From NCBI GenBank assembly GCA_934565415.1, contig CAKTHQ010000021.1, positions 1 through 39,237 on the forward strand: a stretch of 39,237 nt of DNA, given 5' to 3'. The position numbers and the translations under genes were made by a program. Shown in pieces: positions 22,065 through 32,512 of the stretch. The stretch is from an uncultured Oscillospiraceae bacterium. GTDB lineage: Bacteria > Bacillota > Clostridia > Oscillospirales > Oscillospiraceae. Every line of letters starts with the position of its first letter. Within the stretch, counting starts at the first letter, position 1. The notes under the pieces were generated by a model. It ran no database searches. It saw only the letters and a list, made by a program, of their open reading frames with translations, and was not told the DNA's origin.

Positions 22065-22505
22065 TTATTTGGTTTGTTCGCAACACTCCTTCAAATACAC
22101 CATGGCTTCCCGGTATCCGGCAAACCCGTGACCTTTGATGGTTTTGATGCAGGCCATCCCGGCGTAGGAGATTTGCCGGAAGGATTCCCGGGCATCTACA
22201 TCGGAAATATGAACCTCTACCGCAGGGATGGATACGGCCTTCAGGGCATCCAGAATGGCAACGCTGGTGTGAGTATAGGCGGCAGGGTTGATGACGATGC
22301 CGTCGATCTTCCCATAAGCCCATTGAATTTTATCCACCAGATCCCCTTCATGGTTGGATTGATAGCATTCCAGATCGACTCCCAGCTCCCGGGCGGCTTC
22401 TTCCAGCAGCGCAATCAGGTCCGCGTAGGTGTTCTTTCCGTAGATCCCTGGCTCCCGGATCCCCAGCATATTGAGATTTGGTCCGTTGATGACGAGAATT
22501 TTCAT
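22065..22505 (-). CDS. aroQ: Type II 3-dehydroquinate dehydratase
   Basis: 146 residues, the usual length. Converts 3-dehydroquinate to 3-dehydroshikimate. Visible: NGPNLNMLGIREPGIYG (8-24, with the catalytic Tyr at 22 and flexible loop Arg at 17), SNHEGDLVDKI (49-59), NPAAYTHTSVAI and EVHISDVDARESFR, all active-site motifs of the dodecameric type II enzyme. Last gene of the operon; its ATG overlaps the stop of the upstream fusion gene by 4 bases. Confidence 0.96.
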   Translation of the reverse strand: MKILVINGPNLNMLGIREPGIYGKNTYADLIALLEEAARELGVDLECYQSNHEGDLVDKIQWAYGKIDGIVINPAAYTHTSVAILDALKAVSIPAVEVHISDVDARESFRQISYAGMACIKTIKGHGFAGYREAMVYLKECCEQTK

Positions 22506-23728
22506 ATCTGTTCCTCCAAAATGCGGATGATTTGCATGGCGGTATCTTGGGGACTGCCGCTGTTTTCAACCGTAAAATCGGCAAAGGCATTGTATAGCGG
22601 GGCTCGTTTTTGATACATCTCGGAAAGCTTTCCCGATTGAGATAGAGGCCGCCCAGCTGTGGGCAACAGGGAAAGGTCCCGCCTGAGCCAGAAAATGGTG
22701 CCGTTCCGGTGCAGTTTTTCGTAGTTTTCCGGGATTGTCACACAGCCGCCGCCGGTGGCGATGACCTTACCGGAGCCTTTGCCCAATTCCAGCAGAGTTT
22801 GGCTTTCCAGGGCGCGGAAGGCAGCTTCTCCTTCCTGGGGGATGATCTCTGTGATAGGCCGCTGGGCGTTTTCCTCCAGTACGGCGTCTGCATCCAGAAA
22901 GGGGCGGGAAAGAAGCTGGGAAAGGTGGGTTCCCACGGTGGTTTTCCCACACCCGGGCATACCGATCAGGATAATATTCTCCATCTGACTGCGGAGTTTC
23001 CGATAAATGGTATCGATTACAGAATCTTCAATGGGTGACCCGGTGAACCATTCGGCGCTTTCCTTTGCCTGGGCTACCAGCATTTGGAGACCATTTACGG
23101 CGGGAAGCCCCAGTGCTTCGGCTTGCAATAGAATTTTGGTCCTGGCAGGATTATACACCAGGTCCAGTACGCCCTCCAGGTGAGGAAAAATGGACAGGTC
23201 GCCAATGGCAGCTCCTTCCACGTTGGGATACATTCCCAGAGGGGTGGCGTTGACGATCAGGGCGGCGTCCAGATGCCGGTCCAGATTCTGATAGTTGTTT
23301 TCCCCGGTTCGGGATACGGCAATGACCTGGGCACCATGCTCTTTTAAAACGGCACAGACGGTGTTGGAGGCTCCGCCGCTGCCGCAAACCAAGGCCTTTT
23401 TCCCGAAGATATCTATGCCGATGGACGCAAGCGTGGTTTCAAAACCAAAATAATCTGTATTGTGGCCGATTAACTTTCCGCCTCTTCGGACGATGGTATT
23501 GACTGCCCCCAGCGTTTTTGCCCGGGGAGAGAGCTCGTCCAAATAGGGGATCACATCCTTTTTATAAGGGATGGTTACGTTCAGGCCGGTAAAATCCCCG
23601 TGCTTTAGAAAATCCTCCAGTTCCTCTGGTTCTTTTTCAAAAAGGGTGTATTCGTAGCTTCCAAGCTGCCCGTGGATCTGCGGGGAATAGCTGTGTCCCA
23701 GTTTTCTTCCCAGTAAGCCGCATTTCAT
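22502..23728 (-). CDS. aroE-aroK: Bifunctional shikimate dehydrogenase / shikimate kinase (AroE-AroK fusion)
   Basis: 408 residues. Residues 1-246 are AroE: GHSYSPQIHG, NVTIPYKKD (catalytic Lys56), HNTDYFGF (catalytic Asp92), GSGGASNTV (116-124, NADP site), NATPLGMYP and VNGLQMLVAQA. Residues 249-408 are AroK: Walker A GMPGCGKT (256-263), DADAVLE, ATGGGCV, LRRD and RxPLYNAFAD. It carries two consecutive steps plus ATP-dependent phosphorylation to shikimate 3-phosphate. The junction SQMENIILIG shows an internal Met where a separate aroK would start. The first base overlaps the pheA stop (TGATG). Confidence 0.95.
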   Translation of the reverse strand: MKCGLLGRKLGHSYSPQIHGQLGSYEYTLFEKEPEELEDFLKHGDFTGLNVTIPYKKDVIPYLDELSPRAKTLGAVNTIVRRGGKLIGHNTDYFGFETTLASIGIDIFGKKALVCGSGGASNTVCAVLKEHGAQVIAVSRTGENNYQNLDRHLDAALIVNATPLGMYPNVEGAAIGDLSIFPHLEGVLDLVYNPARTKILLQAEALGLPAVNGLQMLVAQAKESAEWFTGSPIEDSVIDTIYRKLRSQMENIILIGMPGCGKTTVGTHLSQLLSRPFLDADAVLEENAQRPITEIIPQEGEAAFRALESQTLLELGKGSGKVIATGGGCVTIPENYEKLHRNGTIFWLRRDLSLLPTAGRPLSQSGKLSEMYQKRAPLYNAFADFTVENSGSPQDTAMQIIRILEEQI

Positions 23729-24873: not shown

Positions 24874-25971
24874 TCACTTCTCCTGTCTTTTTGGGCGAAA
24901 GGCACCTTCGCCCAGCATGATATCCATCAGCGCAACGGCGGCCGCCGCTTCTACAACTGGTACTGCTCTTGGCACGATGCAAGGATCGTGGCGGCCCTTT
25001 ACCTGCAGCACCTGATTTTCCATGGCTGCAAGGCCGACACTTTTTTGTGGAATAGAAATAGAAGGGGTGGGCTTCAGTGCAATTCGGAAGAGTAGCGGCA
25101 TTCCGTTTGTGATGCCGCCTAAAATACCGCCGCAGCAGTTGGTTTCCGTCACTACCCGGTCGCCTTCGATTCGGAAAGGATCGTTATTCTGACTGCCCAG
25201 CATTTTGGCCACCCCAAATCCGGCGCCGAACTCCACGCCCTTTACGGCAGGAATGCCGTAGAGAATCTGGGCCAATTTTCCCTCCATGCCACCGAACATG
25301 GGCTCTCCCAGCCCGGCAGGAAGGCCCAGAATGGCGCACTCCACAGTACCGCCGACGCTGTCGCCACCAGCTTTGGCTATTTTAATTTCTTCCTGCATGG
25401 CTTGGCCTTTCGCCGCATTCAGAACGGGGAAGTCATGGCACACCGCATTTAAATTCGGAGAAATGGGGTTGAAACGGTCATCGGAGACGCGGCCAATGGA
25501 GGCGATATGCGCGGAGATACGGACACCGGTCGTTTCCAGCCACTGTTTGCACAGGCCGCCGGCAATACATAAGGGGGCCGTCAGTCGGCCGGAAAAATGC
25601 CCGCCGCCGGCGGCATCCTGGTAGCCGCCGTATTTTACCTGAGCCGTGTAATCCGCATGGCCGGGCCGGGGGCAGTCCCGAAGGTTATCGTAATCTCCGG
25701 ATCGAGTATTGGTATTGCGGATTTCGGCGGCAATGGGCGCGCCGCAGGTAAAGCCGTTTAGAAGTCCGGAAAGGAACTCCGGCGTGTCGGCTTCTTTCCG
25801 GGGGGTAGAGTAAGCATTCTGCCCAGGGGCCCGACGGCGAAGGAATGTATGCAGGGCATCCGGGTCCACAGGAAGCCCCGCAGGAATACCGTCCAGGACC
25901 ATGCCAATGGCGGGGCCGTGAGACTGGCCGAAGATGGATAATTTCAGGTGTTCACCGTAGGTACTGCTCAT
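24874..25971 (-). CDS. aroC: Chorismate synthase
   Basis: 365 residues. Converts EPSP to chorismate with reduced FMN. Motifs: GEHLKLSIFGQSHGPAIG (6-23), RRRAPGQNAYSTPRKEAD, RPGHADYTAQVKYG, DAAGGGHFSGRLTAP, GGDSVGG, GGILGGITNG and GRHDPCIVPRAVPV. The frame is open 41 codons upstream, but ATG 25971 is chosen: GGGAGG is 5 bases before it and the MSSTYGEHLKLSIFGQSHG opening is family-typical. The true start overlaps the end of aroA by 20 bases. Confidence 0.96.
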   Translation of the reverse strand: MSSTYGEHLKLSIFGQSHGPAIGMVLDGIPAGLPVDPDALHTFLRRRAPGQNAYSTPRKEADTPEFLSGLLNGFTCGAPIAAEIRNTNTRSGDYDNLRDCPRPGHADYTAQVKYGGYQDAAGGGHFSGRLTAPLCIAGGLCKQWLETTGVRISAHIASIGRVSDDRFNPISPNLNAVCHDFPVLNAAKGQAMQEEIKIAKAGGDSVGGTVECAILGLPAGLGEPMFGGMEGKLAQILYGIPAVKGVEFGAGFGVAKMLGSQNNDPFRIEGDRVVTETNCCGGILGGITNGMPLLFRIALKPTPSISIPQKSVGLAAMENQVLQVKGRHDPCIVPRAVPVVEAAAAVALMDIMLGEGAFRPKRQEK

Positions 25972-27154: not shown

Positions 27155-28206
27155 TACAACCCCGCAGCAATGAATTCTTCCAGTTTTTCTACCGGCATGG
27201 GCAGAATTTCGCACCGCCCAATAGAACGGGGAACGATGAGACTGACGGTTCCACCGGTACGCTTTTTATCGGAAAGCGCAAAATCCGCAAGGGAGACGGC
27301 ATCCTGTGCCGTGCGGATCGGAAGGTGGAAGGATGTCAAGGTTTTCTCAATTTTAGTGGCATCATTTTTGGAAAGCAACCGATAGTTGACGGCACTTCGG
27401 GAGACGATTGCAGTTCCAATGGCAACGGCGGTTCCGTGAGACAGGGCAAAATGGCTGCCTGCCTCAATGCCGTGGCCAACAGTGTGCCCCAGGTTCAGAA
27501 GCCTGCGTTCCCCATTATCAAATTCATCCCGGGCGACTACATCCCGTTTGAAGCACACACAGCGTTCTATAACATATGCCCGATCGAAGCCTTCGCCATT
27601 TCGCGAAAGATAGTCAAAAAACTCCTTGTCAAACAGAATGGCATATTTAATTACTTCAGCACAGCCGTCCCGGAAAATATTTGCAGGGAGACTGTCCATT
27701 GTGTCCGTGTCACAGAGAACCAAGCTGGGCTGCCAGAAGGCTCCAACCAGGTTCTTGCCAACCTCCAGATCGATGGCGGTCTTTCCGCCTACAGAAGAAT
27801 CAACCGCCGCAAGGAGCGTGGTAGGTATCTGTATAAACCGGATACCCCGCAGGTAGGTGGCTGCCGCAAAACCGGCAAGGTCGCCAACAACGCCGCCGCC
27901 CAAGGCGGCCAGAATGTCCGTACGGGTCAGGTGATTTTGAGCGAGAAAATTCAGAAGCTTCAAATAGGTATCGGCGTTTTTACTCTGTTCACCGGCGGGA
28001 AAAACAAAAGTTACGACCCGAAATCCGGCGTTGCGCAGGCTGTCTTCCACCTGGGAACCATAGAGCGGGTAGACGGTACTTTCGCTGACCAGTGCAACGG
28101 TTTGCACTTTCCCCAGCTCGGCAACCTGTTTTCCCAGCGTATTCAATAGTCCGGAGCCGATGAGTATATCGTAGTTTTTGGAAGCAGAAACGGTAACTTT
28201 TTTCAT
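27154..28206 (-). CDS. aroB: 3-dehydroquinate synthase
   Basis: 350 residues. Cyclises DAHP to 3-dehydroquinate using NAD and a divalent metal. Motifs: FPAGEQSKN, ALGGGVVGDLAGFAAATYLRG, QIPTTLLAAVDSSVGGKTAID, GCAEVIKYAIL (Glu metal ligand), and LLNLGHTVGHGIE (His metal ligands) with SHGTAVAIG. Start ATG 28206 overlaps the tyrA stop by 4 bases. Confidence 0.96.
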   Translation of the reverse strand: MKKVTVSASKNYDILIGSGLLNTLGKQVAELGKVQTVALVSESTVYPLYGSQVEDSLRNAGFRVVTFVFPAGEQSKNADTYLKLLNFLAQNHLTRTDILAALGGGVVGDLAGFAAATYLRGIRFIQIPTTLLAAVDSSVGGKTAIDLEVGKNLVGAFWQPSLVLCDTDTMDSLPANIFRDGCAEVIKYAILFDKEFFDYLSRNGEGFDRAYVIERCVCFKRDVVARDEFDNGERRLLNLGHTVGHGIEAGSHFALSHGTAVAIGTAIVSRSAVNYRLLSKNDATKIEKTLTSFHLPIRTAQDAVSLADFALSDKKRTGGTVSLIVPRSIGRCEILPMPVEKLEEFIAAGL

Positions 28207-30081: not shown

Positions 30082-30158
30082 CAATACTGACATTTTTGAA
30101 ACTCCGAAAGGAGAACAGCACAAACTTCTATTACCTTTTCTTCTCAAAAAAGTAATAG
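30066..30158 (-). ncRNA. Attenuator leader RNA: protector hairpin and antiterminator pairing
   Basis: Protector hairpin: CTATTACTTTTTT (30158-30146) pairs fully with GAAAAGGTAATAG (30140-30128), 13 pairs with two G-U, loop GAGAA; its left arm is leader codons 11-15 and its right arm spans the leader stop codon. Antiterminator: GAAGTTTGTGC (30128-30118) pairs with GCACGAATTTC (30076-30066), 11 pairs with two G-U; the second strand is half of the terminator's 5' arm plus its loop. The antiterminator and terminator therefore exclude each other. A small CTCC/GGAG hairpin (30113-30102) lies between. Pairings were read by eye, without energy calculation. Confidence 0.8.
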
Positions 30159-30190
30159 TAATAAAAGCTGTAGGCGAAACCAAACTGCAT
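30131..30190 (-). CDS. Phe/Tyr-rich leader peptide of the aromatic amino acid operon
   Basis: Nineteen codons, MQFGFAYSFYYYYFFEKKR, then TAA. Five Phe (codons 3, 5, 9, 14, 15) and five Tyr (7, 10-13) make up more than half of the peptide. A GGAGGA sequence 7 bases before ATG 30190 is one of the best ribosome sites in the window, and the transcript start is predicted about 25 bases upstream. The bases just after the stop codon are the antiterminator strand, so a ribosome that reaches the stop would cover it, while one stalled on Phe or Tyr codons would leave it free. No Trp codon is present. It is a leader of the pheL type; peptide function itself is not expected. Confidence 0.88.
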   Translation of the reverse strand: MQFGFAYSFYYYYFFEKKR

Positions 30191-30221
30191 GGCCCGTTCC
30201 TCCGTCGAAGTTGTTACCCGA

Positions 30222-30250
30222 ATTATATCACCGCAGCCAAGTATTTTCAA
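30222..30250 (-). promoter_or_regulatory. Sigma-A promoter of the aromatic amino acid operon
   Basis: On the minus strand, -35 TTGAAA (30250-30245), 17-base spacer, perfect -10 TATAAT (30227-30222). Transcription would start near 30215, about 185 bases before the aroF ATG. Confidence 0.85.
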
Positions 30251-30307: not shown

Positions 30308-30336
30308 TAGACATTTACAAACATATGCTTTATAAT
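30308..30336 (+). promoter_or_regulatory. Sigma-A promoter of pcrA
   Basis: -35 TAGACA (30308-30313), 17-base spacer, perfect -10 TATAAT (30331-30336). It is divergent from the aromatic operon promoter; the two -35 elements are 57 bases apart. Confidence 0.8.
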
Positions 30337-30361
30337 AAAAGAAACAGGCGGGAGGCGGACC

Positions 30362-32512
30362 ATGGATTATTTACAGCAGCTGAATGAAGAGCAGCGGACG
30401 GCAGCGACTACTACGGAAGGGTACATCCGGGTAGTGGCCGGAGCCGGTTCCGGAAAGACAAAGACTTTGGCCAGCAGATACCTGTATCTTGTAGATGCTT
30501 TGGGTATTTCCACCGCCAATATTCTTTGCGTTACTTTCACCAACAAGGCTGCCGCCGAAATGAAGAAACGGATACGGACCCAGCTCCCGGACCAGGATCT
30601 GGCCCATATTACAACCTTCCATGGCTTCTGCGTGACACTTTTAAAAGAGGATTGCCATGTGGTTGGGTATCCCAAGAGCTTTCTTATCATGGATGAAGAG
30701 GATAAAAAGGCCATTCTCTCCGTTGTTTTTGAAGACCTGGGGATCACCGGACGGGATATTACCATCCAGGAGGCGATTGACCATATCGGTTGGCGCAAAG
30801 GCGGCAGAGGATATGTAAAAACTCTGGTGAATGCGGATGCGGAGGAGCTGCTGGCTCTGGTAAAGTCGGCATCCACCTTAAAGGATAAAATTCTATATCA
30901 GTATTTCTACGAACAGAGAAAGTGCTTTGCGCTGGATTTCGATGATCTCATTTATTTTTCCCTTTATATTCTGGAGCACAGCCGGGAAGCCCGGGAAAAG
31001 TGGCAGCAGCGGCTGGAGTACATTATGGTAGACGAGTTCCAGGATATCGATAAGGATCAGTATTCCTTGGCAGATATTTTAAGCGGGTACCATCACAATC
31101 TCTTCGTAGTGGGGGACCCGGATCAGACCATTTATACCTGGCGAGGTGCGGATGTAAAATTCATCCTGGAATTTTCCTCCCGGCATCCCGGAGCGAAAAC
31201 CATCTATTTAAACCGAAATTATCGTTCCGCCCCGCAGATACTGGCTGCTTCCAATGCGCTGATCGATAAGAATCGGGAACGGCTCAAAAAGGAGCTGACC
31301 GCTGTCCGAGGGGACAGCCGAAAGCCTCTCTACTTCCACGCAAAAACCAGTGCACTGGAAGCGGATTGGATCACCGCTAATATGCGGGCCCTTCATGAGG
31401 GGGAGGAAAATCTGTCGTATTCCTCTATGGGGGTTCTTTACCGGGCACATTATGTGTCCAGAGCATTGGAGGAATCCCTGATTCGTAGCAAGATTCCGTA
31501 TGTGCTCTATTCCGGCGTGGAGTTTTACAAGCGGAAAGAAATCAAGGATGTCCTTAGCTACCTGCGGATGATTTATAATCCAGATGATATTTCCTTTCTC
31601 CGCACGGTCAACGAGCCGAAACGGGGAGTAGGCCGTACCCGGATCGCTGCTCTGAAAGCCCATGCGGCAGCCAATGGGGGGACCCTCTACCAGGCTTTAT
31701 TGGAAAATCTGGAAACGGATTCCTTCCGCCGCAGCAGAGCCAAGGAATATGTGCGAATGATTGAAAAATATCGGGCCATTTTTGAACAGATGGATTTAAC
31801 GGACCTGCTGGCCGGCGTCCTCCACGAAAGCGGCTATGAGCAGATGCTCCGCACAGCGGGAGAAGAGGAAAGGCTCGATAATCTGGCAGAGCTCAAACAG
31901 GCAATTTTCGATTTCACCCGTAAAGCGGGGGAGACCGTGACCTTGGGAAACTACCTGGACCACGCGGCTCTTTTTACAAATATGGATACCGGAGAAAAGG
32001 CCCAGGCGGTAAAGCTCATGACCATTCACTCTGCCAAGGGCTTGGAATTCCCGGTGGTTTTTGTATGCGGCCTGTCAGAGGGGATTTTCCCCGGTAAGCG
32101 AGCCAATACCCGGGAAAAGCTGGAGGAGGAGCGGCGGCTGTGCTATGTGGCTTTTACCCGGGCACGGGACCGGCTGTTCCTTTCCGATGCCGCCGGGGTT
32201 AGCTACGATGGCTCCTTCCGCTATCCTAGCAGGTTTCTCTTTAATGCGGAGAAAGAGAACGTGGATTATGTAACGCCGCTGGACCCGGATTTGGAAGAAA
32301 AAACCATGCAGTCTATCCGCCAGACGGAGGACTTGGCGCCGGATACTCCCAGACAGAGCGATTTGGTGGGCAAGCGGGTTACCCATCCGGTGTTTGGTCC
32401 GGGCTCCGTTATCGGCATTCCCAGAGATGGCCAGGGGCTTATCATTCAGTTTGATTCTATCGTTACCCCCAGAACTTTTGCGGATGCCGGCAAAGTAAAA
32501 ATAGAAACATAA
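30362..32512 (+). CDS. pcrA: UvrD/PcrA-type ATP-dependent 3'-5' DNA helicase
   Basis: 716 residues, superfamily 1A. Motif I GAGSGKT (27-33), Ia TFTNKAAAEMKKR, Ib TTFHGFC, motif II VDEFQDID, motif III GDPDQTIYTWRGAD, motif IV LNRNYRS, motif V TIHSAKGLEFPVVF and motif VI VAFTRARDRLFLS. The C-terminus (about 670-712, VGKRVTHPVFGPGSVIGI) is the Tudor-like RNA polymerase-binding fold of PcrA/UvrD. Roles: repair, replication fork and rolling-circle unwinding. GGGAGG lies 8 bases before ATG 30362. Monocistronic, with its own promoter. Confidence 0.94.
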   Translation: MDYLQQLNEEQRTAATTTEGYIRVVAGAGSGKTKTLASRYLYLVDALGISTANILCVTFTNKAAAEMKKRIRTQLPDQDLAHITTFHGFCVTLLKEDCHVVGYPKSFLIMDEEDKKAILSVVFEDLGITGRDITIQEAIDHIGWRKGGRGYVKTLVNADAEELLALVKSASTLKDKILYQYFYEQRKCFALDFDDLIYFSLYILEHSREAREKWQQRLEYIMVDEFQDIDKDQYSLADILSGYHHNLFVVGDPDQTIYTWRGADVKFILEFSSRHPGAKTIYLNRNYRSAPQILAASNALIDKNRERLKKELTAVRGDSRKPLYFHAKTSALEADWITANMRALHEGEENLSYSSMGVLYRAHYVSRALEESLIRSKIPYVLYSGVEFYKRKEIKDVLSYLRMIYNPDDISFLRTVNEPKRGVGRTRIAALKAHAAANGGTLYQALLENLETDSFRRSRAKEYVRMIEKYRAIFEQMDLTDLLAGVLHESGYEQMLRTAGEEERLDNLAELKQAIFDFTRKAGETVTLGNYLDHAALFTNMDTGEKAQAVKLMTIHSAKGLEFPVVFVCGLSEGIFPGKRANTREKLEEERRLCYVAFTRARDRLFLSDAAGVSYDGSFRYPSRFLFNAEKENVDYVTPLDPDLEEKTMQSIRQTEDLAPDTPRQSDLVGKRVTHPVFGPGSVIGIPRDGQGLIIQFDSIVTPRTFADAGKVKIET

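Follow-up and report, generated by a model that had tools for sequence, protein, structure and literature searches.

The pheL, trpL and hisL leaders of Proteobacteria are ribosome-mediated attenuators that combine short leader peptides, mutually exclusive helices and a terminator. Background on these proteobacterial leader-peptide attenuators is given in the accessible portions of PMC9413887 and PMC2965389. Leader-peptide attenuation was also reported among Firmicutes, where the accessible portions of three papers describe His leader peptides in Bacillus (PMC2965389), his attenuators in 17 genomes (PMC9413887) and a Leu-rich ilv leader of Staphylococcus aureus with reporter data (PMC5794164). 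An initial annotation of the DNA analysed here had called leader attenuation classic in proteobacteria and had put the aromatic genes of Firmicutes usually under other controls; His and Leu leaders of Firmicutes, however, were already on record (PMC2965389, PMC9413887, PMC5794164).

With regard to aromatic amino acids, the motif uORFC-13-1, located upstream of aroF in Acholeplasma, is a uORF containing one or more Phe codons, for which attenuation was proposed; its 24 representatives are, according to the accessible part of the report, from Acholeplasma and unassigned environmental sequences only (PMC8632094). Two candidate uORFs with Phe and Tyr codons at shikimate genes appear in a survey of five genomes including Clostridium novyi (PMC6429828, accessible part). 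A different cis element was described upstream of the aroF operon of Enterococcus faecium (PMC4448216), and leader reinitiation is treated in PMC4833913, both likewise accessible in part. The words phenylalanine and tyrosine are absent from the main text of a 50-genome survey (PMC11109978, in its accessible form), and a word search found no such leaders in the accessible portions of PMC8040213 or PMC2864571. In the literature searched, supplements aside, no paper was found describing a clostridial aro leader family or the tracking of operon content by leader codons; prior mention is possible because PMC6429828, accessible in part, covers a Clostridium genome and because a survey published in 2010 by Lopatovskaya and co-workers falls outside the search. 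The mechanism is thus already known, including in Firmicutes, and uORFs with Phe and Tyr codons have been published for shikimate genes; what is added here is breadth and codon tracking.

The window, i.e. the whole stretch of DNA analysed (39,237 nucleotides from an uncultured Oscillospiraceae bacterium), carries a complete aromatic operon, as the initial annotation held; it begins with DAHP synthase and includes pheA and tyrA. Its eight co-oriented genes were placed by NCBIfam:

30031-29030, minus strand: aroF, DAHP synthase (TIGR01361, NF006421)
29033-28203, minus strand: tyrA, prephenate dehydrogenase (best NCBIfam families, below curated cut-off)
28206-27154, minus strand: aroB, 3-dehydroquinate synthase (NCBIfam)
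27154-25952, minus strand: aroA, EPSP synthase (best NCBIfam families, below curated cut-off; the start may be 27154 or an open GTG at 27214)
25977-24874, minus strand: aroC, chorismate synthase (NCBIfam, searched from 25977; translation probably begins at the ATG at 25971)
24870-23728, minus strand: pheA, chorismate mutase-prephenate dehydratase (NCBIfam, below curated cut-off)
23728-22502, minus strand: aroE-aroK fusion, shikimate dehydrogenase and shikimate kinase (below curated cut-offs)
22505-22065, minus strand: aroQ, type II 3-dehydroquinate dehydratase (NCBIfam)

The order is thus aroF, tyrA, aroB, aroA, aroC, pheA, aroE-aroK, aroQ, neighbouring genes overlapping by at most about 20 bases or lying a few bases apart. 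The sharing of one frame by aroE and aroK (22502-23728) is a side observation, as is a divergent gene at 30308-32512, which by eye looks like a UvrD/PcrA-type helicase and has a promoter-like TAGACA-17-TATAAT of its own at 30308-30336.

Upstream of aroF, the following elements were recognised, the pairing segments being predicted:

30250-30222, minus strand: sigma-70-type promoter (pattern scan)
30190-30131, minus strand: leader peptide frame, MQFGFAYSFYYYYFFEKKR (sequence; similar frames in relatives)
30158-30147, minus strand: segment 1, the 5' arm of hairpin 1:2, CUAUUACUUUUU
30139-30128, minus strand: 3' arm of hairpin 1:2, AAAAGGUAAUAG, holding the tandem stop codons
30128-30118, minus strand: segment 2, the 5' strand of the candidate antiterminator, GAAGUUUGUGC
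30076-30066, minus strand: segment 3, the 3' strand of the candidate antiterminator, GCACGAAUUUC
30082-30055 and 30054-30045, minus strand: intrinsic terminator, stem-loop and U-rich tail

The Phe/Tyr leader was confirmed. Its frame of 19 codons contains five Phe and five Tyr codons, ten in all as originally counted, so that more than half of the codons specify amino acids made by the operon; it ends with UAA (30133-30131), followed in frame by UAG (30130-30128). Translation is predicted from the ATG at 30190 and the Shine-Dalgarno (SD) sequence GGAGG upstream of it, a ribosome site that the initial annotation described as strong, and from conservation. The promoter (TTGAAA at 30250-30245, a 17-nt spacer, TATAAT at 30227-30222 and, in the pattern scan, a TG before the -10 box) is strong but, contrary to the initial annotation, not perfect, since it matches 11 of the 12 consensus bases. 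The originally delimited interval (30131-30227) encloses the frame and the -10 box, the whole element extending from about 30250 to 30045. Among 1359 short frames of 9 to 45 codons on both window strands, the leader alone (with two nested starts) reached seven aromatic residues in eight. None of 2000 sequences of 400 nt, generated by a first-order Markov model of the region upstream of aroF, attained this density; 129 of them reached five in eight.

The terminator, with a stem of 11 bp at -22.7 kcal/mol followed by UUUUUG, sits between the leader and the first gene. Segment 1 (CUAUUACUUUUU) spans the end of the Tyr11 codon to the Phe15 codon, and segment 2 starts with the final base of the second stop codon. 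Segments 2 and 3 can form 11 base pairs, segment 3 taking up the terminator's loop and the upper part of its 5' arm; pairing potential and covariation indicate an antiterminator that would exclude the terminator. The terminator had been called conditional without an antiterminator being given, and a candidate is now at hand (30128-30118 with 30076-30066). Hairpin 1:2, which competes with it and in free RNA pulls in part of segment 2 through ACAGC/GCUGU, overlaps the regulatory codons and would, on the same two kinds of evidence, be the anti-antiterminator.

The locus resembles pheL, trpL and hisL in having leader codons for the products of the operon, exclusive helices 1:2, 2:3 and 3:4 that match those of the classic attenuator, and a terminator before the first gene. 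Unlike these systems, it belongs to a clostridial host, unites Phe and Tyr in one leader, gives no Rfam match at gathering score and heads an operon that starts with DAHP synthase and continues through the shikimate pathway. Compared with uORFC-13-1, as accessible in PMC8632094, the window leader shares a Phe uORF, possible -35 and -10 boxes, a ribosome binding site and a terminator upstream of aroF, and differs in the organisms from which that motif is described. The uORFs of PMC6429828 are, in its accessible part, similar short Phe/Tyr frames at shikimate genes, and the two sets may overlap. The His leaders of Bacillus and Clostridia and the Leu leader of S. aureus are alike in being leader-peptide attenuators of Firmicutes and differ in serving other amino acids and operons (PMC2965389, PMC9413887, PMC5794164, accessible portions).

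We consider it very probable that the region is a ribosome-mediated transcription attenuator that tells the aro operon how much charged tRNA-Phe and tRNA-Tyr is available. When Phe or Tyr is short, a ribosome would stall in the codon run from Phe9 to Phe15 and mask segment 1, leaving segment 2 (30128-30118) free to pair with nascent segment 3 (30076-30066); the terminator would come too late and aroF to aroQ would be transcribed. When both amino acids are plentiful, the ribosome would reach the stop codon and mask segment 2, allowing the terminator to form; it would form too in the absence of a ribosome, with hairpin 1:2 capturing segment 2. Stalling, read-through, a response to amino acids and a kinetic choice between helices would all be parts of this scheme.

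A translating ribosome covers 32 nt of RNA. Using a mask of this size and stepping the transcript 3' end through the terminator, the folding model predicted 2:3 pairing probabilities of 0.59 to 0.97 for 3' ends at 30066-30063 with Tyr10, Tyr12 or Phe15 in the A site, compared with at most 0.02 in free RNA and 0.00 with the ribosome at the stop codon. For a transcript extending to 30060, the terminator was predicted to dominate in every ribosome state, and the switch would therefore have to be kinetic; equilibrium folding, in which the terminator wins, was rejected as proof of switching. In this folding model the lead of the antiterminator amounts to about six bases only, and a kinetic switch with so narrow a lead is the weakest point of the scheme. 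In B. subtilis, RNA polymerase has been argued to run ahead of the ribosomes (PMC7858274, accessible part, citing Johnson 2020), which counts against attenuation, since the antiterminator would have to act kinetically.

The initial annotation had proposed comparing regions upstream of aroF in relatives and took missing conservation as a point against its reading. All parts of the switch were found again throughout the order and class samples: the leader frames, the terminator, the antiterminator and the anti-antiterminator. Such a lack of conservation was therefore not encountered. Among the named aroF loci (the best 80 among the matches listed in one genome-contig scan), 69 had a leader, defined as an upstream frame with at least five aromatic residues in eight. 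All 69 leaders start with ATG, and 63 are accompanied by a terminator of -11 kcal/mol or stronger before aroF. The other 11 of these best 80 loci had no leader; for one of them, L047, the upstream sequence amounted to just 57 nt. Nearest to the window among the matches listed is L011, with 93% AroF identity, and its leader reads MQFGFANSFYYYYFFEEKR. Leaders also occur in Sporobacter termitidis DSM 10068 (L042), Angelakisella massiliensis (L051) and Aminicella lysinilytica (L024). In the minimum-energy fold of the window, the leader SD region pairs with 30116-30100; since this spacer differs in L011, the pairing was dropped as a part.

In the genome samples, a homologue was present in 80 of the 117 members of the order and in 144 of the 196 of the class. 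At a frame limit of 48 codons, the leader threshold was passed by 55 of 90 upstream regions in the order sample and 46 of 87 in the class sample, leaving 41 of the latter without such a leader; these counts are not unbiased frequencies, the sampled matches coming mostly from the tops of the lists. At a limit of 45 codons, 72 of 117 regions in the set L111-L228 had a leader. An ATG together with an SD match of at least four bases was found for 58 of the 69 named leaders (from the best 80 listed loci), 46 of 55 in the order sample and 43 of 46 in the class sample. The set of upstream regions stops short of 14 weaker, partial or extra order matches and of lower-ranking class matches; L202, with 132 nt upstream, was excluded from the order and class leader counts, and L111, L112 and L119 duplicate named loci. 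At least two doubtful frames pass the threshold: L191, located inside a T-box and counted within the 55 of 90 with a GTG start and no SD, and L237, a probably spurious TTG frame kept in the leader counts and in the first Trp-codon count given below. A scan of six genomes for runs of TWY codons showed no excess over the backward pattern. As a separate observation, contigs labelled Lentisphaerae/Kiritimatiellae (L027, L032, L061) carry similar Phe/Tyr leaders at aroF, either by horizontal transfer or by misbinning.

The pairing tests excluded six of 70 leaders, those without a terminator of -11 kcal/mol (L014, L031, L043, L058, L059, L060). Taken one by one and compared with dinucleotide-shuffled versions of segment 2, the remaining 64 loci reached p 0.05 in 34 cases and p 0.01 in 16, the window antiterminator giving p 0.027. 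When terminator arms were re-dealt among loci, true 2:3 pairs averaged -15.3 kcal/mol versus -11.3 (z -11.8; 0 of 20000 permutations as good), and the same procedure for 1:2 gave -16.0 versus -12.4 (z -10.3; 0 of 20000); as for all pairing and covariation figures reported here, these values are inflated by kinship of the sequences. Decoys for 2:3 taken from sequence upstream of the leader and from the leader 5' part gave z -0.5 and -0.9. Reversed segment 2 still gave z -3.0 (8 of 5000 permutations as good), and part of the 2:3 signal is therefore composition.

An alignment of the window with 16 relatives, chosen for an antiterminator near the stop codon and to the exclusion of more distant relatives, showed pairing in 88.2% of the cells for 2:3, 90.9% for 3:4 and 86.8 to 93.6% for 1:2. 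Neither the pairing percentage nor the covariation score of any of the three helices was reached by 500 shuffles or six slides. Pairs changed on both sides were most telling for 3:4, with eight observed and no shuffle of 500 as good; three were observed for 2:3 (reached by 27 of 500 shuffles) and five for 1:2 (28 of 500), the latter helix scoring slightly higher when slid by +2 (six such pairs versus five, 12 cells versus 11). With 2:3 anchored on the best-pairing terminator-arm match of each sequence, a choice that favours pairing, 158 of 170 cells paired against a permuted mean of 147.0 (0 of 10000). Among the 17 aligned sequences, the first third of the leader peptide is variable.

The codon content of the leaders follows need, the share of Tyr codons going with tyrA and Trp codons with TrpE. 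Over 114 leader loci, of which three of the 18 without tyrA and three of the 96 with it are the six that prompted the idea, Tyr made up 0.50 of Phe and Tyr codons where tyrA lies next to aroF (n=96) versus 0.24 where it does not (n=18; p 9e-9). In 14 of these 18 loci aroB comes next; the next-gene call covers gaps of up to 400 nt and a more distant tyrA would be missed. Loci were required to have a leader and at least 800 nt downstream, four aromatic residues in eight being accepted in the unnamed set. Removal of identical peptides left 89 and 17 loci, and after collapsing similar ones the shares were 0.51 (60) versus 0.27 (13; p 4.6e-6), another collapse giving 0.56 (16) versus 0.26 (10; p 4e-4).

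Three genomes (G124, G064 and G094) have two DAHP synthases each, with a Tyr-rich leader on the aroF-tyrA copy and a Phe-rich one on the other. In this order, the Tyr-rich leaders contain 7, 5 and 6 Tyr and 2, 1 and 2 Phe codons, with tyrA next according to NCBIfam, and the Phe-rich ones 6, 6 and 5 Phe and 2, 0 and 1 Tyr codons, those of G064 and G094 having one Trp codon each. Downstream of the Phe-rich leaders, tblastn placed aroB next and pheA further on, aroB being found by NCBIfam as well in G124 and G064.

The initial annotation rightly saw that the window leader has no Trp codon and took this as a gap in the control of Trp synthesis. This concern is largely answered by the lack of detectable TrpE and IGPS in the genomes of six relatives (G001-G006; MAGs, which may be incomplete) and by the trend linking Trp codons to TrpE. 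Leader-bearing genomes, many of them MAGs that may be incomplete, yielded TrpE (PF04715) in 1 of 12, 6 of 50 and 30 of 80 cases, 36 of 141 overall (G107 belongs to both the 50- and the 80-genome sets), as opposed to 14 of 14 control genomes; IGPS was found in 1 of 19. It is probably because Trp is usually not made in the relatives, to judge from their genomes, that the aro leader ignores it. A Trp codon occurred in leaders of 15 of 36 TrpE-positive versus 7 of 105 TrpE-negative genomes in the first count (p 5e-6), the species tree being ignored in this and the following statistics. Adding G064 and G094, which were absent from it and whose Trp-bearing leaders have four aromatic residues in eight and no TrpE found, gave 15 of 36 versus 9 of 105 (p 2e-5). 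The figures were 13 of 31 versus 9 of 94 for all four-in-eight frames with ATG and SD (p 1.5e-4), 10 of 28 versus 7 of 94 for stricter frames (p 6e-4) and 9 of 22 versus 7 of 69 for collapsed families (p 0.002). The link is loose and exceptions exist. T-boxes were present at 7 of 20 trpE loci scanned (of 36). In Sporobacter termitidis (G007, L289), a T-box lies directly upstream of trpE, and the aroF leader has one Trp codon.

Three other explanations of the region were weighed. Leader translation or stalling could expose or hide the aroF ribosome site, or allow reinitiation, with a constitutive terminator. Only about 100 nt separate the leader stop from the aroF start, and in the window UUCUCC (30115-30110) could, by reading, pair with GGAGAA before aroF; such translational control is nevertheless very unlikely, the conserved partner of segment 2 being the terminator arm and a terminator of -11 kcal/mol or stronger being kept in 63 of the 69 leaders from the best 80 listed loci. 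It is more improbable still that an RNA- or DNA-binding protein antiterminates or represses the operon, with the peptide as a bystander or functional small protein. Some longer leaders do share tails such as GKAxxGLAE, which would suit a functional peptide, but in L034, L038, L044 and L054 the stretch encoding the tail pairs with the terminator, so that RNA pairing can explain the sharing, and the variable first third of the aligned peptides also speaks against a conserved product.

The least probable of these readings, hardly to be entertained, is that the operon is governed by a T-box or another tRNA- or ligand-sensing RNA, the short frame being incidental. T-boxes do occur widely in these genomes: they were found in all nine relatives tested (over the cut-off in eight) and before 8 of 40 further DAHP synthase upstream regions, 39 of which are below the leader threshold. 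Against this, the T-box covariance model (RF00230) matched neither the window nor any of 19 leader-bearing aroF loci, whose sole Rfam hit was an FMN riboswitch about 1 kb upstream in L017, and the codon mix tracks operon content. The window gave no match at gathering score to any Rfam 15 family, including the proteobacterial amino-acid leaders there, in line with the initial annotation, which had found no T-box core by eye; L010, a 20th locus scanned and without leader, had no T-box match either. At DAHP synthase genes L182, L183, L186, L189, L190, L191, L192 and L194 a T-box is found in place of the leader, and several genomes with a T-box-preceded DAHP synthase hold a second copy. A T-box may take the place of a leader and vice versa, and most leaderless upstream regions scanned had neither. 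Short GWYRG frames in L183 and L191 were discarded as leaders, being located inside T-boxes.

Ribosome-mediated attenuation in a clostridium, as originally proposed, is accordingly the reading that conserved leaders, terminators, antiterminators and anti-antiterminators support at the level of sequence comparison. Leader-peptide attenuation at an aro operon has seldom been described in clostridia, and the comparative evidence for it is good. Classic leader attenuation would thereby stand at the entry to aromatic amino acid synthesis in gut clostridia, for which a T-box would be the default guess. It is somewhat more likely than not that, over much of Clostridia, the first aromatic step is mainly controlled by leader attenuation and that the leader is an evolving multi-input sensor. 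If so, Tyr codons would track tyrA, Trp codons the Trp pathway, and duplicated DAHP synthases would differ in leader specificity. Ribosomes would also have to stay near RNA polymerase at these 5' ends, contrary to the view of widespread runaway transcription in Firmicutes; since the mechanism needs this proximity, the leaders make transcription-translation coupling in Firmicutes directly testable. The natural variants, with their mixes of Phe, Tyr and Trp codons and T-boxes at other copies, are suited to the study of how regulatory specificity evolves, and the wider idea of a leader sensor that operates throughout the class and mirrors operon content would be worth experimental work.
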